Positions 8,304-29,352 of a stretch of 55,362 nt of DNA are shown piece after piece (the stretch's first letter is position 1; every line of letters starts with the position of its first letter). The translations under genes and the position numbers were made by a program. This DNA is from Nevskia sp. (lineage in GTDB: Bacteria; Pseudomonadota; Gammaproteobacteria; Nevskiales; Nevskiaceae): positions 1 to 55,362 of the forward strand of contig JAQGNU010000114.1 in the NCBI GenBank assembly GCA_028291645.1. Reading direction: 5' to 3'. Below the pieces are notes generated by a model. The model searched no databases. It saw only the letters and a program-made list of their open reading frames with translations, and was not told where the DNA came from.

Positions 8304-8556
8304 TTGATTTGCCTCCGGCAATGCGCGAGATGCGCGAACGTCCTTGTCTGCACCAGCCTTGAAATCGTGGTTCACGTAGGCGAAATCGTCAAACAGCAAT
8401 GGGGCCGAACGAAGCGCAAGCGAGATAGCGATGTAATTCGATCCTCGTGCGCAAAGCGGACAAACCGTCGCGTCCACTTGCCAAAGGACCAATTGTTCTT
8501 TGGCCGCACTGGTGTGTCCGTGCGTCAATGGATCATCGTCGAGCACGGGAGCGGTC

Positions 8557-10308
8557 ATGCGCTATTCCTGGAAAGATTTGATCCCGGCGCTGCTCATAAT
8601 CGTTGCAGCGCCGTGGCTCGCGGCAATGCTGTTCGCGGCTTTCGTAGGTGCGCGACACTACGCGCCGGGCTTTCTCGAATACGTGCAGATGTGGCGTAGC
8701 TATTCGCCGTCACCTCACTACAAAGTCCTGTTGCAGCTCGCCGCCGCGGTCCCGATCGCAATGGCCGTATTATTTGCGCTGCTCCCGGTCCTGATGCGGC
8801 GGCCAGCCCTGTTTGGCGACGCGCACTTCGCCGATGAAGCAGAAGTCCGCGCTGCGGGCCTGCGCGCGAAACAGGGCGTGATCCTCGGCCGCATGTGCGG
8901 ACGCCTGTTGCGCGCACAGGGCCAGCTCGGCGTCCTGCTGTTCGCCCCGCCACGATCCGGCAAAGGTGTCGGCTTCGTCATTCCCAATCTGCTGACCTGG
9001 CGCGGCTCCGCTATCGTCAACGACCTCAAGCTGGAGAACTACGAGAGGACTTCTGGCGCACGGTCGGCAATGGGCCAGCAGATCGTGCTGTTCGCACCGC
9101 TCGACCCGGAGGGCCGCACCCATGCCTATAACCCACTAGACTTCGTGTCCAAGGACCGGCGTTTGCGGGTCAATGACGTGCAGGCGATCACGGCCAAGCT
9201 GCTGGTGACGCCGCCGCGCGCCGATCCGATGTGGAGCAACGAGGCGCGCGTGTTGCTCGACGGGCTGATCCTGTTCCTGCTCGATGTGAACATGCGGGCA
9301 TCGCTGGGCGCGATCTATCGCATGGTGCTATCCGTCCCCAATTTCGCCGACTACATTGAATGGGCGATGAAGGAATATGACGGCCGGCTCGACCAGGCGT
9401 CGGTGATGCAGTTCAATGGCTTCCTGGGCAAGGCGTACAAGGAACAGTCCGGCGTTCTGTCCACCCTCAAAGGATCGCTGTCGTTGTTCGCGAACCCGCT
9501 GGTGGATCGTGCGACGTCCACCACCGAATTCGACCCACGCGAGTTGCGGCGCCGTCAGATGACGATCTACCTCGGCGTGATGCCGCGGGACATCGCACGG
9601 CTGTCGCCCTTGCTCAACATCTTCGTGCAGCAGACTTTCGATGGACTGCTGGGGCGGTTGCCGGGCGCGGATGAGCCGCACCAGCTCCTTGCCATGCTGG
9701 ACGAGTTCACTGCCCTGGGCCGGTTGGAGAACGTCGAAAAGGGAATAGCCTACTTTGCAGGCTACAACATCGTGCTGGCGCCGGTGATCCAGGACTTGTC
9801 TCAATTGGAGGAGGTGTACGGCCAGGCCGTCACCGAAACCTTCCTCTCCACCGCGAACATCCGCATCGCCTATGCGCAGAACAGCCTGAAGACGGCCAAG
9901 TACCTGTCAGACGAGTTGGGCTTTCGCACCATCCGCACCCAAAGCCGCTCGCATCGCATCACCGATCCTTGGCAGGGCCACGTTTCGGAATCGCAGGCCA
10001 AGCGGGAATTGCTGTTGCCGCACGAAATCCGCGAGCTGGACCGCAGGAAGGAACTGCTGCTGGTGGAGGCCGCGCCGCCGATCAAGGCGGATAAGATCAG
10101 GTACTACCGCGAGCGTGCCTTCATCCATCTGCTGCGATCGGCGATTGAGCGCCCGCAGTTGCGAAACGCTATTGTCGAGCCGCCGCGGATGCCGACAGAG
10201 GTGCCGGAGCTGTCTCATGCGGAAATTGATTCAGTGCTGAAGGCCGTCGGCGAATCTCCTAAGCCAGCCTCCCGGCGCAATTCCGAAAGGACCACTGACA
10301 ATCAATAA
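8557..10308 (+). CDS. traG: VirD4/TraG-type coupling protein
   Basis: This 583-residue protein is the type IV coupling protein, an inner-membrane hexameric ATPase that links the relaxosome to the secretion channel. Two transmembrane segments lie near residues 8-32 and 57-80. The Walker A APPRSGKGVG is at about 130-139 and a Walker B LLAMLDEFTALG in the later third, followed by QDLSQLEEVYG. A GGGAG run before the ATG at 8557 sets the start; an upstream in-frame extension overlaps the divergent promoter region. The downstream luxR-type gene is convergent, 26 bases away. Confidence 0.92.
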   Translation: MRYSWKDLIPALLIIVAAPWLAAMLFAAFVGARHYAPGFLEYVQMWRSYSPSPHYKVLLQLAAAVPIAMAVLFALLPVLMRRPALFGDAHFADEAEVRAAGLRAKQGVILGRMCGRLLRAQGQLGVLLFAPPRSGKGVGFVIPNLLTWRGSAIVNDLKLENYERTSGARSAMGQQIVLFAPLDPEGRTHAYNPLDFVSKDRRLRVNDVQAITAKLLVTPPRADPMWSNEARVLLDGLILFLLDVNMRASLGAIYRMVLSVPNFADYIEWAMKEYDGRLDQASVMQFNGFLGKAYKEQSGVLSTLKGSLSLFANPLVDRATSTTEFDPRELRRRQMTIYLGVMPRDIARLSPLLNIFVQQTFDGLLGRLPGADEPHQLLAMLDEFTALGRLENVEKGIAYFAGYNIVLAPVIQDLSQLEEVYGQAVTETFLSTANIRIAYAQNSLKTAKYLSDELGFRTIRTQSRSHRITDPWQGHVSESQAKRELLLPHEIRELDRRKELLLVEAAPPIKADKIRYYRERAFIHLLRSAIERPQLRNAIVEPPRMPTEVPELSHAEIDSVLKAVGESPKPASRRNSERTTDNQ

Positions 10309-12633: not shown

Positions 12634-15600
12634 TCACAGCGCGAACAGTTCATCAGCCTTGGTGACGACTATATATCTCGCAGGATTCTCGCCGACCGCC
12701 AACGCCTTGAAATGAGCTTTTCCGCATTCGATCTTCGCGCTCTCCTTGTCGCGTAGATCATCCACGAACAGGCTGCCCTTAGTCTCCACCACGAAATAGA
12801 GGCGCTCAAGGCCATCCTTCTCCACAAGCACCGCCCAGTCGGGGTTATAGCTACCCAGGGGCGTCGGCACACGAAACCAACCGGGCAACTTGGCGTAGAC
12901 TTTTACTGACTCGTTCAGTTCGAGTTGCTCGGCGAAGCTTCGTTCGACACCGAAATCAAAGATCACGCTTTCGTACACAGCCTTCTTGGCAGCGAGCATG
13001 TTCTTGAGGTAGCCGGTCAGTTCCTCCTTCTCAAACAGCTCCTGCGCGTAGTAGTGTTCGTCGCCGATGCGTTGGTAGCGGATGCCGTCCACCAAGGCCA
13101 TGCGCTTTGCGCGATTGATCGCCTCCTGCGCCAGCTCCATGAACTGCTGCGGGTTGCGCTTGAAATCGTCCAGGCGCTTGCTCTCTGTCAGGATGCGCGC
13201 CAGGCTGCGCCGCGTGAGCTGCGTGGCATCTTGAAGATAGGTCAGCAGGTCCGGCAGTTCGATGTCGGCCTCGTCCAGCGTCACCGGCGCACTGGCGGAG
13301 GTCTGAGTAGCTTCCACGCCAGCCTTGCCAATAGCCAAGTCGGCCTTGCGGATATGGACGCGCGTCTTGGCGATGGCCGGACCTTTGGTGATGGCTTCCG
13401 AGCAGTCCTTTACCAGCTTGTCGTTATCAAACTGTACGCGGTAGGTGGTTTTGTGCTTGATCCGATCCCATAGCGCCCTGAACTCTTCGCTGTGCAGCAC
13501 TTCCTTGCGCAATTTCACCGATTTGCGTTCATCCGCGTTCTTGATGTCTAGCTTGCCCGCGAGCTTGCGCAGAATTTCCTTGACTTGGGGAAGTTGATCC
13601 GCGAACTCGGCTGGCACCGCCAGCGTATTTTCCTTGAGCGCCTTGCGAAGGTGGTCTTGCACGCGGCCCTTCGCGTCCAGGTAGCCCGCCTGCTGTAGAT
13701 ACGCCCAGAGAGCTGCGGACTTCTCGAACCCTAGCGCGGTGGCGTTGCCGTCTGCATCCTTGGTGGCGAGACCGGCAAACTGATGTTTCTCCACGATGCC
13801 GAAGCGGATGCCAGTATCGTCCTCGATTTCTTTCTGGAGATTCGCAGCAAAGTCTTCGTAGCTCTCGGTGGCAATGACGGTCAAGGTATTGATGTCGAAG
13901 CCGCGCAGCCGATCGCCGCTCTGGTTCACGCACAGACGCAGGCCACGCCCTATCGTCTGCCGACGCTCGCGTTCGGTGCCCATCTCGCGGATCGCGCAAA
14001 TCTGGAACACGTTGGGGTTATCCCAACCCTCGCGCAACGCCGAGTGCGAGAAAATGAACTTGAGCTTGGTCTCGAAGCCCAGCAGCTTTTCCTTCTCCTT
14101 CATGATCAGATTGTAGGCGCGCTCCGCATTGTCGCGGCTCCCCTGATTGCTCTCCGACGTATCCGTCCAGCCGCCCTTCTTGTCTATCGAGAAATAGCCG
14201 TTATGGACCTCGGCCGCTTCTGACTCCAAATCTACTTCCTTAAAGAGGCTTTGCCATTTCGGCTTGGCCGCAGCCTTTCGATATTCCTCCTCGAACATCA
14301 AAGCGTATTTGCCCTTCACCGGCGTGCCGTCAGTGGTGTAGCTGCGATAGTGCTCAACCGCGTCAATGAAAAATAGACTCAGAACCTTAACGCCTTGCGG
14401 CGTCAGCCGGAGTTCCTTATCCAGGTGTTCCTCAATCGTGCGCTTGATCATCTGGCGCTTGAGCGCATCCTCGTCCACGCCGCCGCTGGCTTCGCCGATG
14501 CGCAGAGGTTTTTCCAGATAGCTGAGTTCCAGATACTCGTCCCCACTCTTGCAGCCGATGTTCTGCACCAGACAGTTAGCGTAAAGCGCCCGATTGGTGA
14601 GCTGTTCAAGGTCGCTGCCGGGTTCAACGGCAATCGTGTTCCGGCTAACGCCGGTCAGCGTCTCAACGTCCACCTCGATCTTGGCGGTGAACTTGTTTCC
14701 CTTCGCCTTCGTAGACACCAGCCGAATATAGGGCTTGTTATGCCCACCCTCCACCTGAAGTGAGGCCACCTCAATCTGCTTCACAAGCTTGCGTTCGTAG
14801 GCATCCACCGCATCGAGCCGGAACAGCATGTGATGCTTGTCGGCGTGTGTGGCGGAATAGCGCAATGTGCAAAGCGGATGCATCTCGGCCAGCGCCTTCT
14901 TGCCACTGCCTTCCAGTCCGCCGTCCACGCTCTGCGGCTCATCCACGATCACGATGGGCCGTGTTGCCCGGATCAGGTCAATGGGTTTCTCGCCGCCGGT
15001 TTTTTCGCTGTCCTTATAGAGATTATTGACGTCCTTCTTGTTGATCGCGCCGACCGTCACCACCATGATCTGAATATGCGGGCTGGTAGCGAAGTTGCGC
15101 ACCTGGCCGAGCTTGCCGGAGTCATAGATAAAGTAGTCAAAGGGCGCGTTGGCGTAGAGGCTGCGGAAATGCTCGTCCGTCATCTGCAAGGATTTATAGA
15201 CGCCCTCCTTGATGGCGACAGACGGCACCACGATCACAAATTTGGTGAAGCCATAACGCTTGTTCAGTTCAAAGATCGTGCGCAGATACACGTAAGTCTT
15301 GCCTGTGCCCGTCTCCATCTCCACCGTGAAGTCGCCGGACGCCAGCGATTCGGTCGGCCTGAGGCCATTGCGGAGTTGAATGTCCCGCAAGTTCTTGAGC
15401 AACTCGTCGTCCAGCAATTGCAAGCGGTTGCCGATGCCAAGATCGTTTTGCACCAAGCCCAGATCGCCCTGAGAAAAACTCCCACCAGCGAGCCCCAATT
15501 CACCCTGACCCACAGCCGCTTTCGTGTTTTGGATCGTGACGGTAAATTCCGTGCGGCAGATTTCTTGGCCACGGAACACATCGGCTACCGCCTCAATCGC

Positions 15601-15642
15601 TGCGTGCTGGTAGTCCAGACTCGGTTCAAAGTGCAGCTTCAC
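12634..15642 (-). CDS. res: Type III restriction enzyme subunit Res
   Basis: About 1002 residues. An SF2 helicase core has Walker A METGTGKTY (about 109-117), motif II DEPQ (about 234-237), motif III LRYSATH and motif VI QTIGRGLRL. The C-terminal endonuclease shows PDWAVLV and VVETKG, the D...ExK pattern of type III Res. With Mod it should cleave DNA after ATP-driven communication between two sites. I chose the GTG at 15642 because it overlaps the darG stop as GTGA and gives the family start VKLHFEPSLDYQ; the ATG at 15663 overlaps darG more. It is the last gene of the six-gene operon. Confidence 0.9.
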   Translation of the reverse strand: MKLHFEPSLDYQHAAIEAVADVFRGQEICRTEFTVTIQNTKAAVGQGELGLAGGSFSQGDLGLVQNDLGIGNRLQLLDDELLKNLRDIQLRNGLRPTESLASGDFTVEMETGTGKTYVYLRTIFELNKRYGFTKFVIVVPSVAIKEGVYKSLQMTDEHFRSLYANAPFDYFIYDSGKLGQVRNFATSPHIQIMVVTVGAINKKDVNNLYKDSEKTGGEKPIDLIRATRPIVIVDEPQSVDGGLEGSGKKALAEMHPLCTLRYSATHADKHHMLFRLDAVDAYERKLVKQIEVASLQVEGGHNKPYIRLVSTKAKGNKFTAKIEVDVETLTGVSRNTIAVEPGSDLEQLTNRALYANCLVQNIGCKSGDEYLELSYLEKPLRIGEASGGVDEDALKRQMIKRTIEEHLDKELRLTPQGVKVLSLFFIDAVEHYRSYTTDGTPVKGKYALMFEEEYRKAAAKPKWQSLFKEVDLESEAAEVHNGYFSIDKKGGWTDTSESNQGSRDNAERAYNLIMKEKEKLLGFETKLKFIFSHSALREGWDNPNVFQICAIREMGTERERRQTIGRGLRLCVNQSGDRLRGFDINTLTVIATESYEDFAANLQKEIEDDTGIRFGIVEKHQFAGLATKDADGNATALGFEKSAALWAYLQQAGYLDAKGRVQDHLRKALKENTLAVPAEFADQLPQVKEILRKLAGKLDIKNADERKSVKLRKEVLHSEEFRALWDRIKHKTTYRVQFDNDKLVKDCSEAITKGPAIAKTRVHIRKADLAIGKAGVEATQTSASAPVTLDEADIELPDLLTYLQDATQLTRRSLARILTESKRLDDFKRNPQQFMELAQEAINRAKRMALVDGIRYQRIGDEHYYAQELFEKEELTGYLKNMLAAKKAVYESVIFDFGVERSFAEQLELNESVKVYAKLPGWFRVPTPLGSYNPDWAVLVEKDGLERLYFVVETKGSLFVDDLRDKESAKIECGKAHFKALAVGENPARYIVVTKADELFAL

Positions 15643-16688
15643 ACATGCGCCCCGGCCGCCCATCCCTGAGTGCAGAGCACGTCCACTGCGATACCTATTT
15701 GCCGCCTTGTAAATTGACGCTTGCGTTCGTTCCAGGCGTAGGTGTGTTCGATCACATCGTCAAGGGCAGTCACAGACTCATGCTTCATCACCCAGTGCAC
15801 GGTGGCCAGCAACTCGAGACCGTAGGGCGACTCAAAGCCTTCGACCAGCGCTCTCACCTTGCCGAAGCGCATACGAGTGTCGGCATGCTCAAGCAGGAAG
15901 GCCGAAGCGTCATTCACTGCGCCCGGCACCAGTGTCAATTGCTTGTCCGGAGCGTCGCCGCCGTCGGCATATCCGGCGATCAAGTGGCCCTCAATCGCGT
16001 TCAACACATGCCGCATGTTCTCGGCGTAGGGGCCATAGGGCGCCTTGACATACTGCAACCGCAGCAGCTCGCCGGCCTCCTGCATGAAATACATCAGTTT
16101 GTGCACTTCAAGCAGCGTAATTGAAGGATCTAACAGACCGTCCAGATAGCCGCGCATCAGCTCTACCAATGCGGCTCTCCCGGTGGTCATCGTGGGCACC
16201 TTCCGAGCGTGCCGCATAGTGTCCGATTCCGGTGCGCCCTTGGGTTCATAGACGCTGACGCGCACATCAGTGAGCGCTTGCAATGTCGCCTCGATGCGCG
16301 TCTTGACCGCCTCCCAGTCCAACCCGCCCAGGCCGCTGCCTAATGGGGGAATCGCGATTGAGCGGATACCTCGCTCGCGGATCGTCGCTGCCAGTGCCAC
16401 CAGACCCGACTCGATGTCTTCGATGCGGCTCTTGCCGCGCCAGTGGCGCTTGGTGGGAAAGTTGATGATGTAGCGCGGCGGCGTCAGTTGCTCGGTATCG
16501 AAGACAAACATGCGCCCCGGCTGTACCTCATGTCGCTTGCAGGCTTCCTCGTATGCCTTGAAGTTGTCCGGCCAGAAGTTCTTAAACTGCAACGCGATAC
16601 CACGGCCCATGATGCCCACACAGTTCACTGTGTTGACGATCGCCTCGGACTCGTCCTTCAGTATGTCGCCGCTGGTGTATTCGATCAT
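15639..16688 (-). CDS. darG: DarG macro-domain antitoxin
   Basis: A 349-residue protein. The N-terminal macrodomain (about 1-150) has GDILKDESEAIVNTVNCVG, GRGIALQF and PPLGSGLGGLDW, the ADP-ribose-binding loops of DarG-type DNA ADP-ribosyl glycohydrolases. The C-terminal half (about 170-349) is helical (ALVELMRGYLDGLLDPSIT, HKLMYFMQEAGELLRL) and corresponds to the DarT-binding region of DarG. It removes ADP-ribose from thymidine in DNA and also blocks DarT. It begins 10 bases after darT and ends overlapping res, inside the type III operon. Confidence 0.92.
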   Translation of the reverse strand: MIEYTSGDILKDESEAIVNTVNCVGIMGRGIALQFKNFWPDNFKAYEEACKRHEVQPGRMFVFDTEQLTPPRYIINFPTKRHWRGKSRIEDIESGLVALAATIRERGIRSIAIPPLGSGLGGLDWEAVKTRIEATLQALTDVRVSVYEPKGAPESDTMRHARKVPTMTTGRAALVELMRGYLDGLLDPSITLLEVHKLMYFMQEAGELLRLQYVKAPYGPYAENMRHVLNAIEGHLIAGYADGGDAPDKQLTLVPGAVNDASAFLLEHADTRMRFGKVRALVEGFESPYGLELLATVHWVMKHESVTALDDVIEHTYAWNERKRQFTRRQIGIAVDVLCTQGWAAGAHV

Positions 16689-16698
16689 TGCCGCCCCT

Positions 16699-17340
16699 TC
16701 AATAATACCAATCGGCGCGCACTTCCACCGTTGGTCGATGTGCATGAGCAGGTAGCGCATTCACCACCTGCCTATAAGTTGCTGCGGAGTGCACGCCGAT
16801 GCGCTCGACGAGATGCCAAGGAAAGCTGTTCTCCAACAAAAACTCGGCCTGCTTACCCTCCTTACACTGTCGCCAGTCGCGGGCCTGCACCGCATCCCAG
16901 TTCACTTCCCCGAGCAGCGCCAGATTGCTGCGGTCCTCGAAATACCGGGCACCCGCATTGGACAAGGTAAACGCCCAACGACGACCTTCTGCCGTGGCCC
17001 AAGCCACTACCGCATGCAGGTCAGCCTCGAAGTGAACAATCGGCCCCTGTCCACCACGGTAAATCATGTCGGAGTGGTTGCCTTGATGGATGAGATACAG
17101 CATCACCGAGCGCGGGCAAAAGTAAAACGGCACACAGTCCCCAACGCGCAACGCGGGATGACTGCTCAAACTAAGCTCTGTCAGCCGTCGCTGCTTGATA
17201 CCGTTCATGCCAATGGTCGTGCCGGGCGGATTGCGCCGTACAATCTCTGCATCGCACCACAGGCAAGCATCCGCCACGATGGACGGCAACCTGTCCACAT
17301 GAACAATGTGGTACAGCTTGGGCTGGGCGGGCACGGGCAC
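16699..17340 (-). CDS. darT: DarT DNA ADP-ribosyltransferase toxin
   Basis: A 213-residue DarT (DUF4433) enzyme that transfers ADP-ribose from NAD to thymidine in single-stranded DNA. It shows the early HIVHVDRLPSI helix, PFYFCPRSVMLYLI (about 71-84) with the NAD-contacting Arg, and KEGKQAEFLLE (about 160-170) whose Glu in QAE matches the catalytic Glu. The start is a GTG one base after the mod stop codon; a second GTG two codons later is possible. It is coupled to mod upstream and darG downstream, so toxin and antitoxin are made with the restriction enzyme. Confidence 0.92.
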   Translation of the reverse strand: MPVPAQPKLYHIVHVDRLPSIVADACLWCDAEIVRRNPPGTTIGMNGIKQRRLTELSLSSHPALRVGDCVPFYFCPRSVMLYLIHQGNHSDMIYRGGQGPIVHFEADLHAVVAWATAEGRRWAFTLSNAGARYFEDRSNLALLGEVNWDAVQARDWRQCKEGKQAEFLLENSFPWHLVERIGVHSAATYRQVVNALPAHAHRPTVEVRADWYY

Positions 17341-17341
17341 C

Positions 17342-19318
17342 TTACAAGCTCCGCACGTTGTCTAGACCATGCTGCTGAAGGATCGCCGTGAGATTAGTCT
17401 TTGCCACGTCGTCCGCGAAAGCACTGTCGCGGAATACCACCTGCGTTTCACCGGCGGGCGCAAGTTTCTGGTGCCATTCCACGATACCCATTGCGAGCGG
17501 TTCTACCTCTTGCGCGGATACCTTCTCCGCAAGGCACGCGATCAGGGTGCCTGCGCCGATGCTGTGAACCGTCTTGCCCGCGATCTTTTTGCGCTCGATC
17601 TGCACCGTCAGATCAAGGCCCAGCTTGAGCAGAAGCTCGAACAGCACGTCCTGCTCGCTGCGGCCGGATTTGATGTGCTCAGTTGCGTCCAGCAACGACT
17701 TCCCTAGATTCTCTCGGTCAGGCTCCCATGCGCGAAGGTTGCTAGCATCGAGTTTGAAAACGCGGAAGCCCAGATCACCTTTGTGTTTTGGATGATCCTT
17801 TTGCACCTTCTGCGCAGCCCTACGGAGGCGCTCTTTAGTCAATTCGGCGACAGTGCGCGGCTTTCCGAGTTTGTCGCAATAGTCGGCGGCGGCCTTTTGG
17901 TGCTCATCCGACGGATCAAGTGCCTCCGGAATCTGCACCAGAACGTAGCGCCGCGTTCCAGAATCCACAGCGTTCTGCTCCATAACGGCATGCCCAGTAG
18001 GTCCTGATCCCGCAAAAAAATCAAGAACGATTGCATCCTTACCATTCACCATTTGCACGATGTAACGGATTAGATCAACGGGTTTTGGATAGCCGTTGAA
18101 AAACGCGCCAATCTCGGTGAGCTGTGCAGTTGCTTTCTGCGTCCCACCGAATCCGTTGAGCACGGAAATCACATGGCTTTGATATTCGGAGCGGCGTTTC
18201 ACCACCTCGATAGCACCGCTTTTTGCGATTACGAATGTCGTCTCTTGATCTTTGTTGTCACGAATTGGCGCACAGCCGTTGCTAATGAACTCAAGAGCCA
18301 AATCCTTAGAACTCCAGCCGCTTTCGACGACCACTGGGCTCATCAGCTTTCGGCCCTCAATAACAGCTTTGCTCAGATACGCTGGCCACGGTCCCGCTCT
18401 TGATTCAATTTGGCCGCTCTCAAAATCTGCGGGGAATCCTATTGGAAGCGTGATCTTGCTAACCGGATTCGCGGGTCCATTTTTTACGATTGTGTTCCTA
18501 ATTTCCGGCCTGAATAGTTTGCTGTCAGTTGGCGTGCTTGGGTCTACAACTGGAGGATGTGGAAAATCGTCGACGGACTTTGCATACATCAAAATGTATT
18601 CATGGCAGATCTTGATCTTTGCTTGGTTGTCAAAGTTTCCATCGGTCCGCCAACTGAACTGCGCCAAAAAATTGTCCTCGCCGAACACGTCGTCGAGAAT
18701 GGCGCGAAGTCTTGGTCCTTCAACATCATCAATGGAACAGAAAATCGCTCCGCTGTCTCGCAGCAGATTCCTTGCTAACTTCAGCCTCGGATACATCATG
18801 TTCAGCCAGTCCGTATGAAACCGGCCTGAGCTTTCCGTGTTGGAGCTGATTTTCTGCCCGCCCTCCACCTGGCCAGTCAGTTCGAGATAGTTCTTGATAT
18901 TGTCCCGAAAATTGTCCGGGTAAACGAAGTCCTTGCCGGTGTTGTATGGCGGGTCTATATAGATCAGCTTGACCTTGCCCGCGTAGCTCTTCTGCAAGAG
19001 CTTGAGCACTTCGAGGTTGTCGCCCTCAATCATCAGGTTTTGCGTGCTGTCCCAGTCCACGCTCTCGTTGGGGCAGGGGCGCAAGGTACCGGTGCTCGGG
19101 GTCAGGGCGATCTGACGGGCACGCCGCTTGCCGTTCCAATTGAGGCCGTATTTTTCCTCGCGCTCATCTACTACGCCGCCAAGCAATTGCTTCAAGACCT
19201 CGAAGTTCACCTTGCCCTCGGTGAAGGCTTCGGGGAACAAATCCTTGAGCGCGTCCAAATTAGTGCCGGTCAGATCGGCGCTCTGCGCCTCGGGATCGCT
19301 GGAGGTAATTTGCTTCAT
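17342..19318 (-). CDS. mod: Type III DNA methyltransferase Mod
   Basis: A 658-residue beta-class N6-adenine or N4-cytosine methyltransferase. The catalytic IDPPYNTGKD is at about 121-130 and the AdoMet motif VLDFFAGSGPTGHA follows the target-recognition region, the order of beta-class enzymes. The region between them (about residues 150-420, bases 18061-18871) is visibly more AT-rich than the rest, as seen when recognition domains are exchanged. It gives the sequence specificity of the Mod-Res complex. It starts 11 bases after the DUF4391 gene. No simple-repeat tract for phase variation was seen. Confidence 0.93.
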   Translation of the reverse strand: MKQITSSDPEAQSADLTGTNLDALKDLFPEAFTEGKVNFEVLKQLLGGVVDEREEKYGLNWNGKRRARQIALTPSTGTLRPCPNESVDWDSTQNLMIEGDNLEVLKLLQKSYAGKVKLIYIDPPYNTGKDFVYPDNFRDNIKNYLELTGQVEGGQKISSNTESSGRFHTDWLNMMYPRLKLARNLLRDSGAIFCSIDDVEGPRLRAILDDVFGEDNFLAQFSWRTDGNFDNQAKIKICHEYILMYAKSVDDFPHPPVVDPSTPTDSKLFRPEIRNTIVKNGPANPVSKITLPIGFPADFESGQIESRAGPWPAYLSKAVIEGRKLMSPVVVESGWSSKDLALEFISNGCAPIRDNKDQETTFVIAKSGAIEVVKRRSEYQSHVISVLNGFGGTQKATAQLTEIGAFFNGYPKPVDLIRYIVQMVNGKDAIVLDFFAGSGPTGHAVMEQNAVDSGTRRYVLVQIPEALDPSDEHQKAAADYCDKLGKPRTVAELTKERLRRAAQKVQKDHPKHKGDLGFRVFKLDASNLRAWEPDRENLGKSLLDATEHIKSGRSEQDVLFELLLKLGLDLTVQIERKKIAGKTVHSIGAGTLIACLAEKVSAQEVEPLAMGIVEWHQKLAPAGETQVVFRDSAFADDVAKTNLTAILQQHGLDNVRSL

Positions 19319-19329
19319 GGAGTGCCCGA

Positions 19330-20082
19330 TTAAAGTTTGTTCAAAAGATTGGCAAGCTGATTGTCCAGCTTATGGATTTGCATATTCAGGTCGGCACGGC
19401 GATTGATCTGTTTCTCGCGCACGGCCTGTGCCCGCAGGTTGATTCGTTCCTGTTGCAGGCGCGTGTGCTCATCAAGCGCCTTGTCCCGATCAGCGATCTG
19501 CTGCACAGATCCGGCGCGTACAAAGCGATCTGTAATTTGCGCGGCGGCGAACGCGGTCATGCAGTCGAGCCAGCCCTGATACACAGTGTTGAGATTGTGC
19601 GCGGCTTGGCCGGCCAAGGCGAGGCTGGTGACAAACTCCGCCTCATGCAACGCCTCTGCTGACAACACGCAGATGTTGAGCTTGCCATCTAGCACCACCG
19701 CCTCGTTCTGGGCCTGCGAGCGCCGCTTGTGCGCGAGCGATATGGCTGGACGCCCGCCTTGTTCAGTGATCAGCACCAGTGGATAAGGAATAGCACGGTG
19801 AATCAGTTCCGTTAGCCGCGTCGTCTTGGCCGTGGGGCGCAATACGGCGGTGAGCACAGCGATCTCCAGATATTCCCTAACTTCATCCTTGTAAGCCGCC
19901 ACGCCAATGTTGGCAGGCTTGAGCGCGGCTACCCAGGTCAGCTCTTCGAGTCCATCTTGAATGGCTCGCTTGTCCGCTGCAGTAGGTGCGCCTTGTTCTA
20001 GCAGCAGCTTTTTGGGAACGCGCTGATCCAGACGGACGCTTGGCGGCAGGCCGAGAGCTTCAATGAGTTGTGCGGCATTCAC
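19330..20082 (-). CDS. DUF4391 family protein
   Basis: A 250-residue protein of the DUF4391 family, which is found in defence loci beside helicases and methyltransferases. The N-terminal half contains an alpha/beta domain (LTWVAALKPANIGVAAYKD, YPLVLITEQGGRPAISLAHKRR) with some likeness to a nuclease-like core. The C-terminal quarter is a coiled coil (about 195-250). The GTG start overlaps the helicase stop codon. Role in the system is unknown; it may link helicase and methyltransferase. Confidence 0.8.
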   Translation of the reverse strand: MNAAQLIEALGLPPSVRLDQRVPKKLLLEQGAPTAADKRAIQDGLEELTWVAALKPANIGVAAYKDEVREYLEIAVLTAVLRPTAKTTRLTELIHRAIPYPLVLITEQGGRPAISLAHKRRSQAQNEAVVLDGKLNICVLSAEALHEAEFVTSLALAGQAAHNLNTVYQGWLDCMTAFAAAQITDRFVRAGSVQQIADRDKALDEHTRLQQERINLRAQAVREKQINRRADLNMQIHKLDNQLANLLNKL

Positions 20083-23000
20083 GCCGGGTTCCCCGCGAGC
20101 AAAGCGATACAGGCCACAACTTCAAAGTCATTGGCTCCTTGGAATTCACCTTTCGTCGCATGTGTCCCGCCCGGCGTAAACAGACTGGCGACCGCGCGCT
20201 CCTGGCTCTTGCCCAACACAGAAGCGACGGCTGCCGCCAGTAGCTTCTGTGGGGCGCTCATATCCTGGCCGTCGCGGGTAGCTTTGTCGAAGCGAGCGCA
20301 GGCCCCTGCATCAGGCAAATCGCGGCCAATGGTGAGCCGTTGCAGGCGGTCAAGCACTTGCTTGGCCTGGGTGAACGGCAGCAGCACGGCGCCGTCCTCG
20401 CCGACATGCACGAGGTAATGCGGAGCGAGCGGGTAACCCGGCTCAATAGCCTTGTTCGCTGATTCGCCGACGGCGCGCAGACAGAAGATGGTGCCCGGCG
20501 CAATCGCAGACTCACCGCCGCTTTGCGTCGTAGTGATAGCCAGGCTGCCAAACGGGAGGGTTTCCAGCTTGCCGGGGTGTGCGCGTAAATATGCCGCGAG
20601 GTCTATGCGGAAATCGTTGAGCGTGAGATCGGCAATTGAAATGCCGCTGCCCAAGTCTTCCAGATCAATCACCGCATCCTGGAGTTTCTCAAGTTGCTTC
20701 CGGCGATATTCCAGATCGTTCATCTGGTTGCCGGATTGGTGCTCGATGATGTTCTCTTCGCCGGTGGCGGAAATGTCCAGCAACACCATGCGCCCGCTTA
20801 CGCGCTGCTCCAGGTTAATGTATTCCTCCAGCTCCATATTGGGCCAGAAGTTGATGAGCTGAACGCTGGCGTTGACAGAGCCGATGCGGTCAATGCGTCC
20901 GAACCGCTGGATGATGCGGACCGGGTTCCAGTGAATGTCGTAGTTGATGAGGGTGTCGCAGTCCTGGAGGTTCTGGCCTTCCGAGATGCAGTCCGTGGCG
21001 ATAAGCAAATCCAACTCGCCTTCGTCGGCCAGTTCCGGGGGACGCTCTTTCGAGCGAGGTGAAAATGCGGTGAGGATGCTGGCGAGGTCCAGGCGCAATC
21101 CTTCGAGATTGGTCTTGTTGCGACCCGCGCCCGTGACCAGCGCCGCGTTCACGGCCAGTTCCTTTTGCGCCCAAGCCGCGAGTTCGCGATAAAGATATTC
21201 CGCCGTCTCCGCAAAGGCGGTGAATACGATCACCTTGCGGTTGCCGGGGTTGAAGGGCTTCTTGCACTTCCCCAAGATGACCTGGCGCAGGGCGTCGAGC
21301 TTGGCGTCGCGGCCTGGTTCTATCTGCTCAGCCGCCGATAAAAGCGTGGCGAGGCGATTTCGATCTTCCGTCAGGTCTTGCCGCCAGCGCACACGGTCCG
21401 TGTCCTGCAACAGCACCTTGACCTTGCGCCCGATCATCAGCGTTTCAAACAGCGGGTCGTCCACTTCCAGGTCTTCGATAGAGATTTCCTCCACCGACTC
21501 TTCGTGCACTTCGATTCTCTGGAGCAGTGATTCTACGTCCCGCAATTGCCGCTTGATTGTCAGCGCAAATGACGAGACTGCGCTTTCCATGCGCTTGAGG
21601 ATGTTGACGCGCAGCAGGTGGATCAGGCTTTCCTCGCGGTCCACTTGTCGGAAAAATCCCTGACCACCTTTTACTTGGGTGTTGTATTTGGCGTCGTAGG
21701 CGGCTTGCTTGTGCGGCAAGACATAGCGCAGCGGAGCGTAGGCACTGAGATTCAGACGGCGAATTTCGCTGTTGATCTCGCGGATGGAGTGAAATTCCTT
21801 TTCCAAATCCACGTCCACGCGGATATTGATGGGCTTGAGCCGTTCTGGAAACTTGCCGGTCTCCGCCGTGCCGTAATACTTCTCGATGTGTTTGCGCGAG
21901 CGCGCGATAGTGAGCAAGTCGAGCAACTTGAAGTAATCAAATCCCAGCATGTCCAAGAGGCGGGCGGGCTTGCGGTCGACATCCTCCAGATTCATCCAGC
22001 GGTTGAACTGAAGTTGAGCCTGACGCACTGTGGCCTCGATGCTGGGGATGTTATGCGCCTCCAGCGCCGTGTCGTCGCCTTCAGTGACGAATGCGATCTG
22101 ATTCTTCAGATCAGCCAGCCGGTTGTTGACCGGCGTGGCGGAGAGCATGAGCACGCGCGTTTTCACGCCGTCCTTGATGATGCGCTTCATCAGGCGGTCG
22201 TAGCGCGTATCTCGATCCTTGTGCGTGGCCTTGTTGCGGAAGTTGTGGGACTCGTCGATCACCACCAGGTCGTAGTTGCCCCAGTTGACGTGCGAGAGGT
22301 CTATGTCGCCCGACATGCCGCCTTCGCGCCCCAGGTCGGTGTGATTGAGCACGTCGTAGTGCAGGCGATCCGCCGCCAGAATGTTGCGGCGGTCGTTGGC
22401 CTTGTAGATGGTCCAGTTGTCTCGCAGCCGCTTAGGCGCAAGCACCAGCACGCGGTCATTGCGCAGCTCGTAATACTTGATGACGGCCAGCGCCTCGAAG
22501 GTCTTTCCGAGGCCCACGCTGTCGGCGATGATGCAGCCACCCAGACGCTCCAGCTTGTCTATCGCGCCGACCACGCCGTCGCGTTGGAACTTGAAAAGTT
22601 TCTTCCAGACCACCGTATTCCGGATGCCGGTCGCTGACTTGACGATGCGTTCCTCGTCCAAGTCGTCGCCAATGTCCTTGAAGAGATGGAACAGGATTAG
22701 GTAGTAGATCAGCGATGGCGCTTTGTGTGCCATCAATTCATTGAGCCGGGCCAAGAGCGATGACTTGGCATCTTCTGTTGACGGCAGCCCGTCCCACAAT
22801 GACGAGAACCAGCCGCTTAGCACTTCCCATTCGGACTTGGATTCGGTGCATTGAATCAAACTGTAAGGGTTGCCGGGGGTGATACCCAAGCCGTCCGTAG
22901 TCAGCGGACAGTAGCCGGTGATCGCCCGTTTCGATGCTTCTTCGCTGCCGTCCATCACCAGCGCGGACTGCGGCAGGCGAGCAGGCGCGGTCCGCACGCT

Positions 23001-23285
23001 TGCGATCTGATTCACCCACTCCGCGCATTGGCGTGCAAGAAACCTAGTCTCTAGGCGATTTCGCCGAGACCGGTCAGCCTCCGAGCCCAACATTCCCGGA
23101 TCGAATCCATCAGGCAGAGCAAGGGCCAGGCGGGCACCTTCAAGGGCTTTGAGTTGATGCTCAAGCTCGGCGAACGCAAACAGCGAGAGTCCAGGTGTGG
23201 CGATGTCCAACCGAGATCCAGGCTTTAAGACTGATCTCAGTTCATCCACGACGCGGTCGTTTCCGCTGTTTTTTATGAGACGCAT
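20079..23285 (-). CDS. SNF2-type helicase of the defence operon
   Basis: A 1068-residue protein. After an N-terminal domain of about 200 residues that may be a divergent phospholipase-D-like fold without a visible HKD motif, the SNF2 core has Walker A DSVGLGKT (about 255-262), DESH in VVIDESHNF, SATPVNN, and motif VI IQRFGRIDRIGS. It has a long insertion between the two RecA lobes and a C-terminal extension rich in strands. It is the first gene of the operon and overlaps the DUF4391 start. It probably translocates on DNA as part of defence. Confidence 0.88.
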   Translation of the reverse strand: MRLIKNSGNDRVVDELRSVLKPGSRLDIATPGLSLFAFAELEHQLKALEGARLALALPDGFDPGMLGSEADRSRRNRLETRFLARQCAEWVNQIASVRTAPARLPQSALVMDGSEEASKRAITGYCPLTTDGLGITPGNPYSLIQCTESKSEWEVLSGWFSSLWDGLPSTEDAKSSLLARLNELMAHKAPSLIYYLILFHLFKDIGDDLDEERIVKSATGIRNTVVWKKLFKFQRDGVVGAIDKLERLGGCIIADSVGLGKTFEALAVIKYYELRNDRVLVLAPKRLRDNWTIYKANDRRNILAADRLHYDVLNHTDLGREGGMSGDIDLSHVNWGNYDLVVIDESHNFRNKATHKDRDTRYDRLMKRIIKDGVKTRVLMLSATPVNNRLADLKNQIAFVTEGDDTALEAHNIPSIEATVRQAQLQFNRWMNLEDVDRKPARLLDMLGFDYFKLLDLLTIARSRKHIEKYYGTAETGKFPERLKPINIRVDVDLEKEFHSIREINSEIRRLNLSAYAPLRYVLPHKQAAYDAKYNTQVKGGQGFFRQVDREESLIHLLRVNILKRMESAVSSFALTIKRQLRDVESLLQRIEVHEESVEEISIEDLEVDDPLFETLMIGRKVKVLLQDTDRVRWRQDLTEDRNRLATLLSAAEQIEPGRDAKLDALRQVILGKCKKPFNPGNRKVIVFTAFAETAEYLYRELAAWAQKELAVNAALVTGAGRNKTNLEGLRLDLASILTAFSPRSKERPPELADEGELDLLIATDCISEGQNLQDCDTLINYDIHWNPVRIIQRFGRIDRIGSVNASVQLINFWPNMELEEYINLEQRVSGRMVLLDISATGEENIIEHQSGNQMNDLEYRRKQLEKLQDAVIDLEDLGSGISIADLTLNDFRIDLAAYLRAHPGKLETLPFGSLAITTTQSGGESAIAPGTIFCLRAVGESANKAIEPGYPLAPHYLVHVGEDGAVLLPFTQAKQVLDRLQRLTIGRDLPDAGACARFDKATRDGQDMSAPQKLLAAAVASVLGKSQERAVASLFTPGGTHATKGEFQGANDFEVVACIALLAGNPA

Positions 23286-23664: not shown

Positions 23665-23969
23665 TGGTGCCCGGGGACGGACTCGAACCGTCATGCCCTT
23701 ACGGGCTGCAGATTTTCGTACCACTTCGGCTTTCGCCGCCGACCGAGGTCGTTCGTGGTCTGGAGCACGCCTTCACCGTAGCTCTTCAGCCGTAGGTGCC
23801 CGCCGTCTGCTCTCTACACCTTCCCAAGCATCACTGCTAGGGCTTGGCTCGGCGTTAGCAAGGATTTTCCGGAGCTTTCGCCGAGTTTGACGGGCTTCAC
23901 CAGCCGGGTTTCCCCGGCAGGGCTCAATTCTCTTAAGTCTGCTGCGTCTACCGATTTCGCCACCCGGGC
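23665..23969 (-). tRNA. tRNA-Leu(UAA) split by a group I intron
   Basis: The exons are 23935-23969 (35 nt) and 23665-23716 (52 nt, including the encoded CCA). Joined, they give acceptor GCCCGGG/CCCGGGC, a D arm with GGTAGACGCA, an anticodon arm GCAGA-CTTAAAA-TCTGC with anticodon UAA, a class II variable arm with GCCC/GGGC, and T arm GACGG-TTCGAGT-CCGTC. All stems pair perfectly, so the tRNA should be functional. The intron sits between U34 and A35, the site used by cyanobacterial tRNA-Leu introns. The gene starts 42 bases after the integrase stop and lies inside the element. Confidence 0.93.
23717..23934 (-). ncRNA. Group I intron (IC3, Azoarcus-like)
   Basis: The 218-nt intron starts after a U and ends with G, as group I introns do. 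Short blocks match the Azoarcus tRNA-Ile ribozyme as I recall it: TCGGCGAAA, ACGCCGAGCCAAGC, GAAGGTGTAGAGA, AGACGGC, CACCTA, GGTGAAGGC and CTCCAG. In the P7 region GAGCA pairs with TGCTC where Azoarcus has a different but also paired sequence, a compensatory change that supports an active fold. It has no homing-endonuclease frame. It is probably self-splicing. Confidence 0.9.
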
Positions 23970-24011
23970 AGTGGGTGTACCGCGCAGCTACTTTACTACA
24001 AGGCGATCCGC

Positions 24012-25277
24012 TCAGGCCGCTTGCGCGGCGACCAATTTGACCTTGGCTCTGCGGACATTGATGGCGGCCGTATCCAGCGTATTCTTGATATGCGAGGCGT
24101 AATATTTCTCGATCATTTCCACGCTCGTGCGACAGTTCTTAGCGATCTGGTAAATGTCTGCGCCCTCCATCAGCCTCATGCAGATGTAGGTATGCCGCAG
24201 GCTATAGGCGGTTCGCACGCTCCCTTCACGGTCGCGCTTGAGGTCCAGTTCATCGAGAATGTTATTGAAAAGCTCGCGCTGCGAAGAATCGAACAGCCGG
24301 TCGGCGGGCTTGAGTCGCTTGCGCTGGCGAATACGCTGATAGGGGTGCACGGCCCCCGGCATACTCATGCAGTAGCCGGTGCCGCGTTTGCCACGAACGG
24401 TAATCTCAAGGATGCGCTCGCCGTTTCCTTCGTCCCTTACGACCGCGATGTCGCGATCCTCCAGACGTAGCGCTTCGTCAGGGCGCAAGCCCGTGTTGCC
24501 CATGAACAACACGAAATCGTGCATTTGCTCGCACGCCGAACGCCAACGCTCCTTCTTCGGGTGTTTGGACCGCTCACGGGTGGCCTCATAAAGCATTTTG
24601 TACTCGTCGGGGGAGAACCAGGCGCGATGGGAAATCTTTCCCGAACTCTTGTATGCCACCGACATATCGGGCAGTCCCCCAATCCAACCCTTGCGGTTGG
24701 CTGCCTTCAGAATCTGCCGGAGCGTCACCATCTCACTGTGCAGAGTGGAGCGGGCCGGACGGCGCGGCTCACCTGTCTTGGGGTTCAGCCGCGAAGTCTG
24801 ACGATGAACCCGATAATCCTGGATGAGGCCCGCACTAACTTCGGCCACTGGCTTGTCACCGAAGAACGGCAGCAAGTGTAGCCTGACCTTGAGGGACTTC
24901 TGATCGACGTATTCCTGATTCCGCTCGCCCTCGGTGATGACCTGATATTCCTTCAGGAAGATCGCGGCGGCATCTTTGAAGAGGGGGCCAATGGGTTTCT
25001 GCCGGCGCCGGCGATCAAGCGACGGTACTACTTCAACTGCCGGCTGCTCGGTGGTGTCGGACTCGGCCTCGCCTGCACGCCTGCGGCGACGTTCCTCAAC
25101 GCAGCGCTCCATATACCAGCCGCGAGCAAAATCCTTTGCCTCGACGAGGCTTTCTTCCTTCGTGCTCGCCCGGTGATTGAGTGCACCGAGGTAGGTTGAG
25201 CACTGCCAGTACCGGCTGTTCTCACGCTTATAGACGTGCAGTTTGCCGTCCATGAGTGTGTGGGTTTCTGCGTCCAT
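24012..25277 (-). CDS. int: Tyrosine recombinase integrase of the element
   Basis: About 421 residues. An N-terminal AP2/SAM-like DNA-binding part (PLFKDAAAIFLKEYQ onward) precedes the catalytic domain with the first Arg in GNTGLRPDEAL, a beta-hairpin Lys in VRGKRGTG, Arg-His in YSLRHTY (the usual first His is Tyr) and the nucleophilic Tyr in MIEKYYASH near residue 392. A GGAGG site fixes the ATG at 25277 instead of 25289. It lies between the attachment site and the intron-split tRNA-Leu and should catalyse integration into, and excision from, the tRNA-Leu anticodon loop. Confidence 0.9.
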   Translation of the reverse strand: MDAETHTLMDGKLHVYKRENSRYWQCSTYLGALNHRASTKEESLVEAKDFARGWYMERCVEERRRRRAGEAESDTTEQPAVEVVPSLDRRRRQKPIGPLFKDAAAIFLKEYQVITEGERNQEYVDQKSLKVRLHLLPFFGDKPVAEVSAGLIQDYRVHRQTSRLNPKTGEPRRPARSTLHSEMVTLRQILKAANRKGWIGGLPDMSVAYKSSGKISHRAWFSPDEYKMLYEATRERSKHPKKERWRSACEQMHDFVLFMGNTGLRPDEALRLEDRDIAVVRDEGNGERILEITVRGKRGTGYCMSMPGAVHPYQRIRQRKRLKPADRLFDSSQRELFNNILDELDLKRDREGSVRTAYSLRHTYICMRLMEGADIYQIAKNCRTSVEMIEKYYASHIKNTLDTAAINVRRAKVKLVAAQAA

Positions 25278-25299
25278 GCAGACCTCCAAAGACTCGAAA

Positions 25300-25317
25300 T
25301 GTGTAACAGCTGTGTAA
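25300..25317. repeat. Two direct TGTGTAA repeats upstream of int
   Basis: TGTGTAA occurs at 25300-25306 and 25311-25317, exactly 11 bases apart, about one helical turn. The position between int and the attachment core fits arm-type integrase sites or an operator. Binding is not shown. Confidence 0.45.
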
Positions 25318-25351
25318 GCGAATTCTATCGACTAACACACTGTAAATCAAA

Positions 25352-25370
25352 GATTTATTTGTTATAAATC
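25352..25370. repeat. Inverted repeat next to the attachment core
   Basis: GATTTAT and ATAAATC are perfect 7-bp arms around a TTGTT spacer, abutting the tRNA-derived core. It may be a recombinase or excisionase site. Confidence 0.45.
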
Positions 25371-25412
25371 AGATTTTAAGTCCCTTGCGTCTACCGATTT
25401 CGCCATTCGGGC
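25370..25412 (-). other. Attachment site: 5' half of the host tRNA-Leu(UAA)
   Basis: From 25412 leftward the minus strand reads as a tRNA-Leu 5' half: acceptor GCCCGAA, D arm GGTAGACGCA, anticodon strand AGGGA, loop CTTAAAA, then TCTG instead of the expected TCCCT. The next bases are AT-rich element DNA. It shares GACTTAAAATCTG with the joined exons of the intron-split tRNA, so the crossover lies in the anticodon loop. The matching 3' half, predicted to begin AAAATCCCTT and to carry TTCGGGC in the acceptor, should lie at the left end of the element outside the window. It cannot make a tRNA by itself. Confidence 0.88.
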
Positions 25413-28876: not shown

Positions 28877-29352
28877 CGACGACGTCCAGCGCGGATGGCG
28901 GCTGTTTGTTCCTGCAGAAATGACGAAGCCCCGTTGCCGGGGCTCCGAGTGCTTTCGGTGACGATGAGCACTAGATCATCGGATTAGGCCGCGAGGGCCT
29001 GATCGTAAACGCTATCGTTCGCAGATAGACTTTTTGCGCGGCTTAGGGCCGTCGCCTGTCCTGCTGTCCACGTTGATTCCTCACCTAGTCGAAGCTATGT
29101 CATCCCCGTCGATGGTGGAGATGGCCGGTACTGCCCCGGCGTCCTAAGCGCATCCTCGCAGCTTCATACAGCAATAATGCATCGGGAAATCCCGACGCAA
29201 CTCTATTATGCGGCAGCATTTGAAAAAAACCAGTGCCGACACCCCAATCGGCTCCATCCCGCAGCGCAGGCCGCAGGTAATGCACAATACTCGGCAGCGG
29301 CAATCGGGCCTGCCTCGAAAATTCGCCTGCCGACTTAAACTCAGGAGCCGGA
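28877..29352. other. Intergenic gap
   Basis: About 475 bases without a credible gene. A GC hairpin at about 28926-28943 (AGCCCC with GGGGCT), 50 bases after the response regulator, may be its weak terminator. The HxlR promoter should lie at the right end. Confidence 0.4.

Follow-up and report, generated by a model that had tools for sequence, protein, structure and literature searches.

An integrative element of Nevskia sp. that breaks a host tRNA-Leu(UAA) gene and carries a replacement whose group I intron may shield it from the element's integrase

How can an integrative element that breaks a host tRNA gene persist, and what might an intron do in the tRNA gene that it carries in exchange? 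The question arises from a 55,362-nt stretch of Nevskia sp. DNA (assembly GCA_028291645.1, contig JAQGNU010000114.1, positions 1 to 55,362 of the forward strand; hereafter the window), in which half of a host tRNA-Leu(UAA) gene, a tyrosine integrase gene, and a complete tRNA-Leu(UAA) gene split by a group I intron follow one another, all on the minus strand (Table 1). An integrative element that is probably mobilizable would have one of its ends in the window. We consider it about 60% probable that this is a tRNA-breaking element with a replacement tRNA of the same isoacceptor, the intron of which possibly shields the replacement from the integrase.

The broken tRNA-Leu(UAA) gene and its replacement

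The host tRNA-Leu(UAA) gene is cut in the anticodon arm at the element boundary, as a preliminary description of the window had proposed. Its 5′ half terminates in the anticodon stem after GACTTAAAATC, a sequence with two occurrences in the whole draft assembly, one in the window and the other on contig C19 of the same genome. There, the far-end copy of the attachment (att) core was located (L001, C19:21955-21965), together with a 3′ half that is begun by GACTTAAAATC, reads ...TATATAACAGACGCAAGGGACTTAAAATCCCTCAACC...GGCTTCGGGCACCA, and is close to the half predicted beforehand, with its TTCGGGC. Joined, the two halves form an 87-nt tRNA-Leu(UAA) recognized by ARAGORN, with acceptor strands GCCCGAA/TTCGGGC. 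The gene is rebuilt at neither junction, since the integrase side continues into TGATTTATAA and no D-arm precedes the far half. Restoration of the tRNA at the integrase side, as in a classical island, was ruled out, the core there being followed by TGATTTATAA and not by a 3′ half. The genome is a draft of 234 contigs (91% complete); among the class II tRNAs examined in it (Ser CGA, UGA, GCU, and GGA; Leu UAG, CAA, and GAG; among 35 tRNA hits), no other whole tRNA-Leu(UAA) was seen. In the draft sequence, both broken halves and the replacement are thus present with no other whole tRNA-Leu(UAA), in keeping with the earlier proposal of a host tRNA both destroyed and replaced by the element.

The integrase adjoins the att site. 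It matches Pfam Phage_integrase weakly (17.7 bits; cut-off, 27.1) and has no NCBIfam match at E 1. A single-protein query, which reaches close relatives only, found none of its relatives in viral contigs, and there were none in GenBank phages at E 1e-10. Among the host's relatives, the integrase had a match in 8 of 61 genomes, all but its own hit being 24–34% identical, and no group I intron was detected at E 0.1 in the stretches surrounding these matches.

The replacement tRNA begins 42 bp past the integrase stop codon. The split gene was missed by default ARAGORN and by Rfam at gathering thresholds; with introns allowed, ARAGORN calls it as (taa)i(36,218), bearing out the description of a complete tRNA-Leu(UAA) beside the integrase with an intron of exactly 218 nt after U34. 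Spliced in silico, it is called tRNA-Leu(UAA), the isotype of the disrupted host tRNA. The intron scores 32.9 bits with Rfam RF00028 (group I intron; E 4.4e-6 in a 2.1-kb search) and is absent from the whole-window Rfam listing because the gathering score is 50 bits. A conserved, compensated core was apparent when the intron was aligned with 24 related ones, 25 of 60 predicted pairs remaining paired where at least one sequence differs on both sides. We take the site between U34 and A35 to be the one known for group I introns in cyanobacterial and plastid tRNA-Leu(UAA), and a gammaproteobacterial tRNA-Leu(UAA) group I intron was reportedly described by Vepritskiy in 2002.

These features suggest a mechanism in which the tyrosine integrase would recombine in the tRNA anticodon loop and leave the tRNA gene unrebuilt, and the element would persist because a complete tRNA of the same isoacceptor is carried beside the integrase. 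The intron presumably splices in the cell, so that the host would depend on a ribozyme for its tRNA-Leu(UAA). At the DNA level, the intron may also guard the replacement gene, in which it splits the integrase core after U34.

Table 1. Positions in the window of the element end (first seven features) and of presumed genes of the element.
Feature	Coordinates	Strand	Evidence or remark
Orphan 5′ half of host tRNA-Leu(UAA), integrase-side element end	25412..25372	-	joins half on contig C19 into intact tRNA
21-bp direct repeat (att core) AGACGCAAGGGACTTAAAATC, includes anticodon loop CTTAAAA	25372..25392	-	common with far end on contig C19
Tyrosine integrase (421 aa); many members of its family replace tRNAs	25277..24012	-	weak Pfam match; relatives
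Whole replacement tRNA-Leu(UAA) gene with its intron and CCA end	23969..23665	-	ARAGORN with introns allowed
Exon 1, end ...GACTT (U34)	23969..23935	-	in silico splicing
218-nt group I intron, last base G, between U34 and A35 of core	23934..23717	-	RF00028 below threshold; covariation; relatives
Exon 2, begins AAAATCTGC	23716..23665	-	in silico splicing
SNF2-type helicase, presumed cargo	20079..23285	-	protein search
DUF4391 protein, presumed cargo	19330..20082	-	protein search
Type III restriction-modification methyltransferase, presumed cargo	17342..19318	-	protein search
DarT of DarTG pair, presumed cargo	16699..17340	-	protein search
DarG of DarTG pair (macro domain), presumed cargo	15639..16760	-	protein search
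Type III restriction enzyme, presumed cargo	12634..15663	-	protein search
TraG/VirD4-like coupling protein, presumed transfer gene of element	8500..10308	+	protein search

Recurrence of the layout across the integrase family

To survey the family, six integrases (alignment A1) were used as a query, and the best 80 of at least 559 relatives were examined. A complete Leu or Ser tRNA follows the integrase at 66 of the 80 loci (ARAGORN, introns allowed), starting 9–97 bp past the stop codon in 60 of them and 0.6–3.6 kb after the integrase in L057, L065, L068, L069, L070, and L071; in L092, it lies on the opposite strand. When L081 and L100 are counted as Leu(UAA) and L088 as an intron-bearing Leu(CAA), the replacements comprise 35 CAA, 22 UAA, 1 CAA with an intron, 2 UAG, 5 Ser(UGA), and 1 Ser(CGA). 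A 5′ half with the same loop type as the replacement is present at 61 of the 64 loci parsed (the 66 minus the two UAG loci); the three exceptions are L024 and L101, which show the core only, and L050, in which the half is mutated. As far as these sequences reveal, the same architecture recurs in dozens of relatives. No complete tRNA follows the integrase at 13 of the 80 loci, and in L034, not among these, the replacement is cut; no tRNA was called in L036, L043, and L072, where the sequence ends within 200 bp of the integrase.

Additional genomes contributed 23 further loci. An intact tRNA-Met (12 loci) or tRNA-Arg (2) precedes the integrase at 14 of them, the arrangement of classical restoring islands, and five have a replacement (UAA with an intron in L111, L112, and L114, CAA in L109, UAG in L108), so that the broad integrase family holds both strategies. 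The remaining four had no tRNA call; among these, L120 has a broken Leu(UAA) half, with 409 bp available after the match. A 3′ half of a Lys or Met tRNA lies upstream of the integrase in L017, L018, and L020. The UAG members are L108 (G777:C20), L073, and L083, and the tRNA 3′ half of L108 lies upstream in the opposite orientation, which suggests reversed integration. At E 1e-80, the family is present in 6 of 398 genomes of a phylum sample and 13 of 385 genomes of an alphaproteobacterial sample.

The preliminary description had raised the expectation that integrases of this family always come with an intron-containing tRNA-Leu(UAA). This was not upheld, since the 35 Leu(CAA) replacements counted above are intronless, as are the UAG and Ser types, and the intron is therefore not obligatory for the family; related elements with an intronless tRNA-Leu beside the integrase had been named beforehand as a refuting observation, and they do occur; the narrower statement that stands is that all 26 UAA replacements carry one. 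These 26 (22 from the best 80, L111, L112, L114, and the window) and L088 (CAA) make up 27 intron-bearing tRNAs, in every one of which U precedes the intron, G ends it, and ARAGORN calls the form spliced in silico as a tRNA.

Far ends were sought in 18 genomes with a 3′ half containing CTTAAAA as the query. Matches were obtained in 11 genomes, and nine proved to be orphan 3′ halves, namely those of the window's own genome, L045, L049, L055, L058, L081, L111, L114, and L120. Over these nine elements, the end-to-end repeat measures 8 to 28 bp (the window's being 21 bp) and has ACTTAAAA in every one, and the claim that the crossover segment includes the anticodon loop was accordingly sustained. 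From integrase to far end, the element spans ∼27 kb in G812 and ∼20 kb in G891.

In the stretches examined, no second family integrase lies behind a replacement tRNA, as a tandem insertion would place it, leaving aside adjacent double integrases in two genomes and a short fragment in G709. The double family integrases, in direct tandem at one site, are L104/L109 (G666:C46) and L119/L123 (G925:C3). At ∼5217-5257 of L034, the intronless Leu(CAA) replacement is itself cut at the core, between GGGATTCAAAATC and AGATGC, and an attP-like core without a tRNA half precedes the upstream integrase.

The integrase core, the origin of the intron, and competing explanations

If the replacement must escape the integrase, its core should be interrupted or altered relative to the target. 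The core was defined as the 9-mer at positions 30-38, and each replacement (spliced) was compared with its own target; L050 (half, GACTTGAAA), L109 (target not parsed), L034 (broken replacement), and the UAG loci were omitted, and L024 and L101 were retained despite showing only a core, and no half, upstream. Replacement and target were equal in all 26 intron-bearing cases and in 1 of the 36 intronless CAA cases; of the other 35, 29 have U32, five differ by C30 only, and one has U31. The intron-bearing CAA replacement of L088 retains the target loop, and that of its intronless sister L093 has U32. In the single Ser(CGA) case, the core also differs from the target. Intronless relatives may thus reach by substitution (U32, C30, or U31) the end that the intron would serve in the window.

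Native genes differ between the two isoacceptors. Among the alphaproteobacterial genes listed (at least one row of which is an element's half, with two CAA rows unlike tRNA loops), UAA genes read GACTTAAAA in 55 of 55 and CAA genes GACTCAAAA in 72 of 95. Among the gammaproteobacterial genes listed, UAA genes likewise nearly always have GACTTAAAA (GATTTAAAA in one genome), and U32-bearing CAA genes are frequent. CAA genes therefore supply variants that a C32-requiring integrase may ignore, and UAA genes hardly do; since the cores of native Leu(UAA) genes scarcely vary, almost no UAA tRNA gene other than an intron-bearing one is without a contiguous core. From these comparisons, a shield role of the intron is plausible, and we put it at about even odds that the intron shields the replacement gene from the element's own integrase. 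A general rule of self-immunity, by which the replacement tRNA would be invisible to its own integrase through substitutions in Leu(CAA) or through a core-breaking group I intron in Leu(UAA), could as readily hold as fail.

A number of results speak against this interpretation. The one core-identical intronless CAA replacement (G178), all five Ser(UGA) replacements, the cores of which are identical to their targets without an intron, and three intronless UAG loci with loops like the target by eye mean that the split-or-mutated rule does not hold throughout. The intron is predicted to pair with C32-U33-U34 when folded, which would fix the loop of any intron-bearing gene, shield or no shield. 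Corrected for the tree, five pairs of Leu rows agree, none oppose, and one is a tie (p 0.0625), and with all rows, 4–5 agree, none oppose, and 1–2 are ties (median p 0.125), so that neither comparison reaches 0.05; intron status is nearly the same variable as anticodon UAA. As for the layout, the 5 kb after the integrase contain no tRNA at 10 of the 80 loci (L023, L051, L052, and L074-L080), seven of which (L023, L051, L052, and L074-L077) have a broken Leu(CAA) half, Leu(CAA) being perhaps dispensable there. The far-end search found no match in 7 of the 18 genomes, and two of its matches were further CTTAAAA tRNAs, an intact Leu(UAA) in the L085 genome and an AT-rich tRNA in the L089 genome. 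Finally, among at least 120 viral loci with a related intron core, 47 were called as Leu(UAA) with an intron, and none of the 120, in the stretches examined, has a match to the integrase family at E 1e-20.

The viral loci bear on the likeliest competing explanation, which falls short of even odds: that the intron is a passenger, tRNA-Leu(UAA) genes acquired from phages or hosts often bearing an intron that is rarely lost and has no protective role. It would be favored by the abundance of such genes apart from the integrase, by the exon–intron pairing, which accounts for a loop equal to the target, and by the Ser(UGA), UAG, and G178 elements, which cope with uninterrupted, loop-identical replacements. 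It is also favored by the affinities of the window intron. In a tree of 81 introns, the window intron clusters with the tRNA-Leu(UAA) introns of five viral-collection contigs (100/96), its closest relatives at 77.5–78.9% identity; a caution here is that the long branch L181 adjoins this group. Among the 26 introns from other elements, 24 and two plasmid copies make up a single group (93/84, not starred), and L081 and L088, the latter a long branch, fall outside it. The position of the window intron apart from other element introns points to a separate recruitment, and on this tree, the introns of UAA replacements come from at least two separate sources. Columns were too few for a firm comparison of the intron and integrase trees, in which good support is confined to the window intron's position apart from the rest; on the integrase tree, the UAA-with-intron rows imply at least six changes on starred branches. 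Against a passenger, not one of the 26 UAA replacements is intronless, although their introns have at least two sources and their integrases belong to several lineages, and intronless CAA cores deviate from their targets more (35 of 36) than listed native CAA genes deviate from GACTCAAAA (23 of 95), in rows that are not independent.

Related introns were also observed elsewhere. In viral contigs L127-L246, group I introns with such a core are common and seem to lie in tRNA genes of more than one type, although ARAGORN may have assigned some types wrongly. The viral-collection contigs L247, L248, L250, L252, and L254 each have a tRNA-Leu(UAA) gene with an intron of 223–226 nt, and these genes resemble host genes beside a provirus. 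The window's tRNA-plus-intron matches 1274 plasmid records at 60–80% identity, including pCTX-M3 (NC_004464.2; L255:5995-6293), and on three plasmids inspected, a tRNA-Leu(UAA) with a like intron lies near aac(3)-IId, with no integrase of the window's family within 6 kb of it. The introns of plasmids L255 and L256 nest inside element introns (97/89), so that this plasmid region may carry a relic replacement tRNA.

A further explanation, which we regard as unlikely, is that superinfection exclusion, the blocking of other copies or competing elements, is the main effect of the intron or altered core, and not the prevention of self-attack. An advantage of this kind has been proposed for archaeal elements (PMC3293823), and the intronless replacement of L034 was cut at the very place concerned; however, L034 is a fragment of a metagenome-assembled genome (MAG) whose neighbor lacks a family integrase, and second integrases behind the replacement are absent from the stretches examined, with the exceptions given above. 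That the locus is a classical tRNA-restoring island with an unrelated adjacent tRNA gene, or an assembly artefact, is highly improbable: the intact tRNA-Met or tRNA-Arg and the Lys or Met 3′ halves upstream of other family members, and the 234 contigs of the draft, would be compatible with it, but the tRNA is rebuilt at neither junction, its two halves fit together exactly, and dozens of other assemblies show the three-part layout as well.

Cargo, known systems, and implications

Eighteen proteins from both contigs, a subset of the open reading frames, were searched and yielded restriction-modification, DarTG, coupling-protein, cyclic oligonucleotide-based antiphage signaling system (CBASS)-like, and relaxase genes, among others. 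The C19 side has a patatin, a weak Cap15 match below the cut-off and, at L022:7387-15401, CBASS-like genes (a DncV-like cyclase accompanied by a ThiF/E2 protein) and a relaxase gene. Because the window contig and C19 are unlinked, we infer the total length of the element and the membership of its inner genes; a mobilizable defence island is the natural reading. On the host side, a permuted transfer-messenger RNA (RF04321, 119 bits) lies at 28984-29173 of the window. An intron-bearing tRNA-Ala at 36916-37269 of the window, called by ARAGORN only with introns allowed, is probably spurious.

The layout resembles the published tRNA-dependent lysogeny of actinobacteriophages (Guerrero-Bustamante and Hatfull, 2024; PMC10865867), here on island-like elements. 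As described in the accessible part of that article, a tyrosine integrase likewise uses a short core, the host tRNA is not rebuilt, and an element tRNA of the same isotype complements it. The published cases are temperate phages of Actinobacteria in which the tRNA was tested by deletion, whereas the present elements have another integrase family, occur in Proteobacteria and in MAGs of other phyla, and involve Leu and Ser tRNAs, and in the present genome genes for a relaxase and a coupling protein lie on the two contigs and the replacement contains a group I intron; in the accessible text of PMC10865867, the word "intron" occurs once, in a reference title. Prophages of the alphaproteobacterium S. 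meliloti also substitute a foreign tRNA for that of the host (PMC11476347; mentioned also in PMC12429752). There too, in the accessible account (PMC11476347), the replacement is similar to tRNAs from species unrelated to the host, a table includes a Leu(UAG) prophage, and no intron figures.

The idea of an intron as a shield is already in print for archaeal introns (Randau and Soll, 2008, as cited in PMC4090602 and PMC3293823; also PMC8371274): where the att site of a tRNA gene is divided by an intron, the host would be protected or the integrated element would benefit (PMC4090602, PMC3293823). Archaeal introns are spliced by proteins, whereas that of the window is a group I intron. Group I introns are documented in tRNA-Leu(UAA) of cyanobacteria and plastids (PMC4033280); according to the part of that source consulted, most bacterial tRNA group I introns lie at 37/38, unlike the present one after U34, and no link to an integrase module is stated. 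In titles and abstract openings, a coverage outside which most subscription journals fall, no published description of a group I intron in a replacement tRNA was found.

With the present elements, the replacement of tRNAs upon integration is extended to an integrase family that many Proteobacteria have, as do MAGs bearing the names of other phyla; Leu (UAA, CAA, and UAG) and Ser tRNAs are the targets, and self-attack is apparently avoided in two ways. By implication, some hosts would owe their tRNA-Leu(UAA) to a ribozyme that an element carries. Group I introns of bacterial tRNA genes are usually regarded as neutral or selfish. If the intron does act as a shield, some of them would be kept for hiding a gene from an integrase, a concrete and testable benefit, and were the self-immunity rule to hold, this would be a bacterial tRNA group I intron with a selected function at the DNA level.

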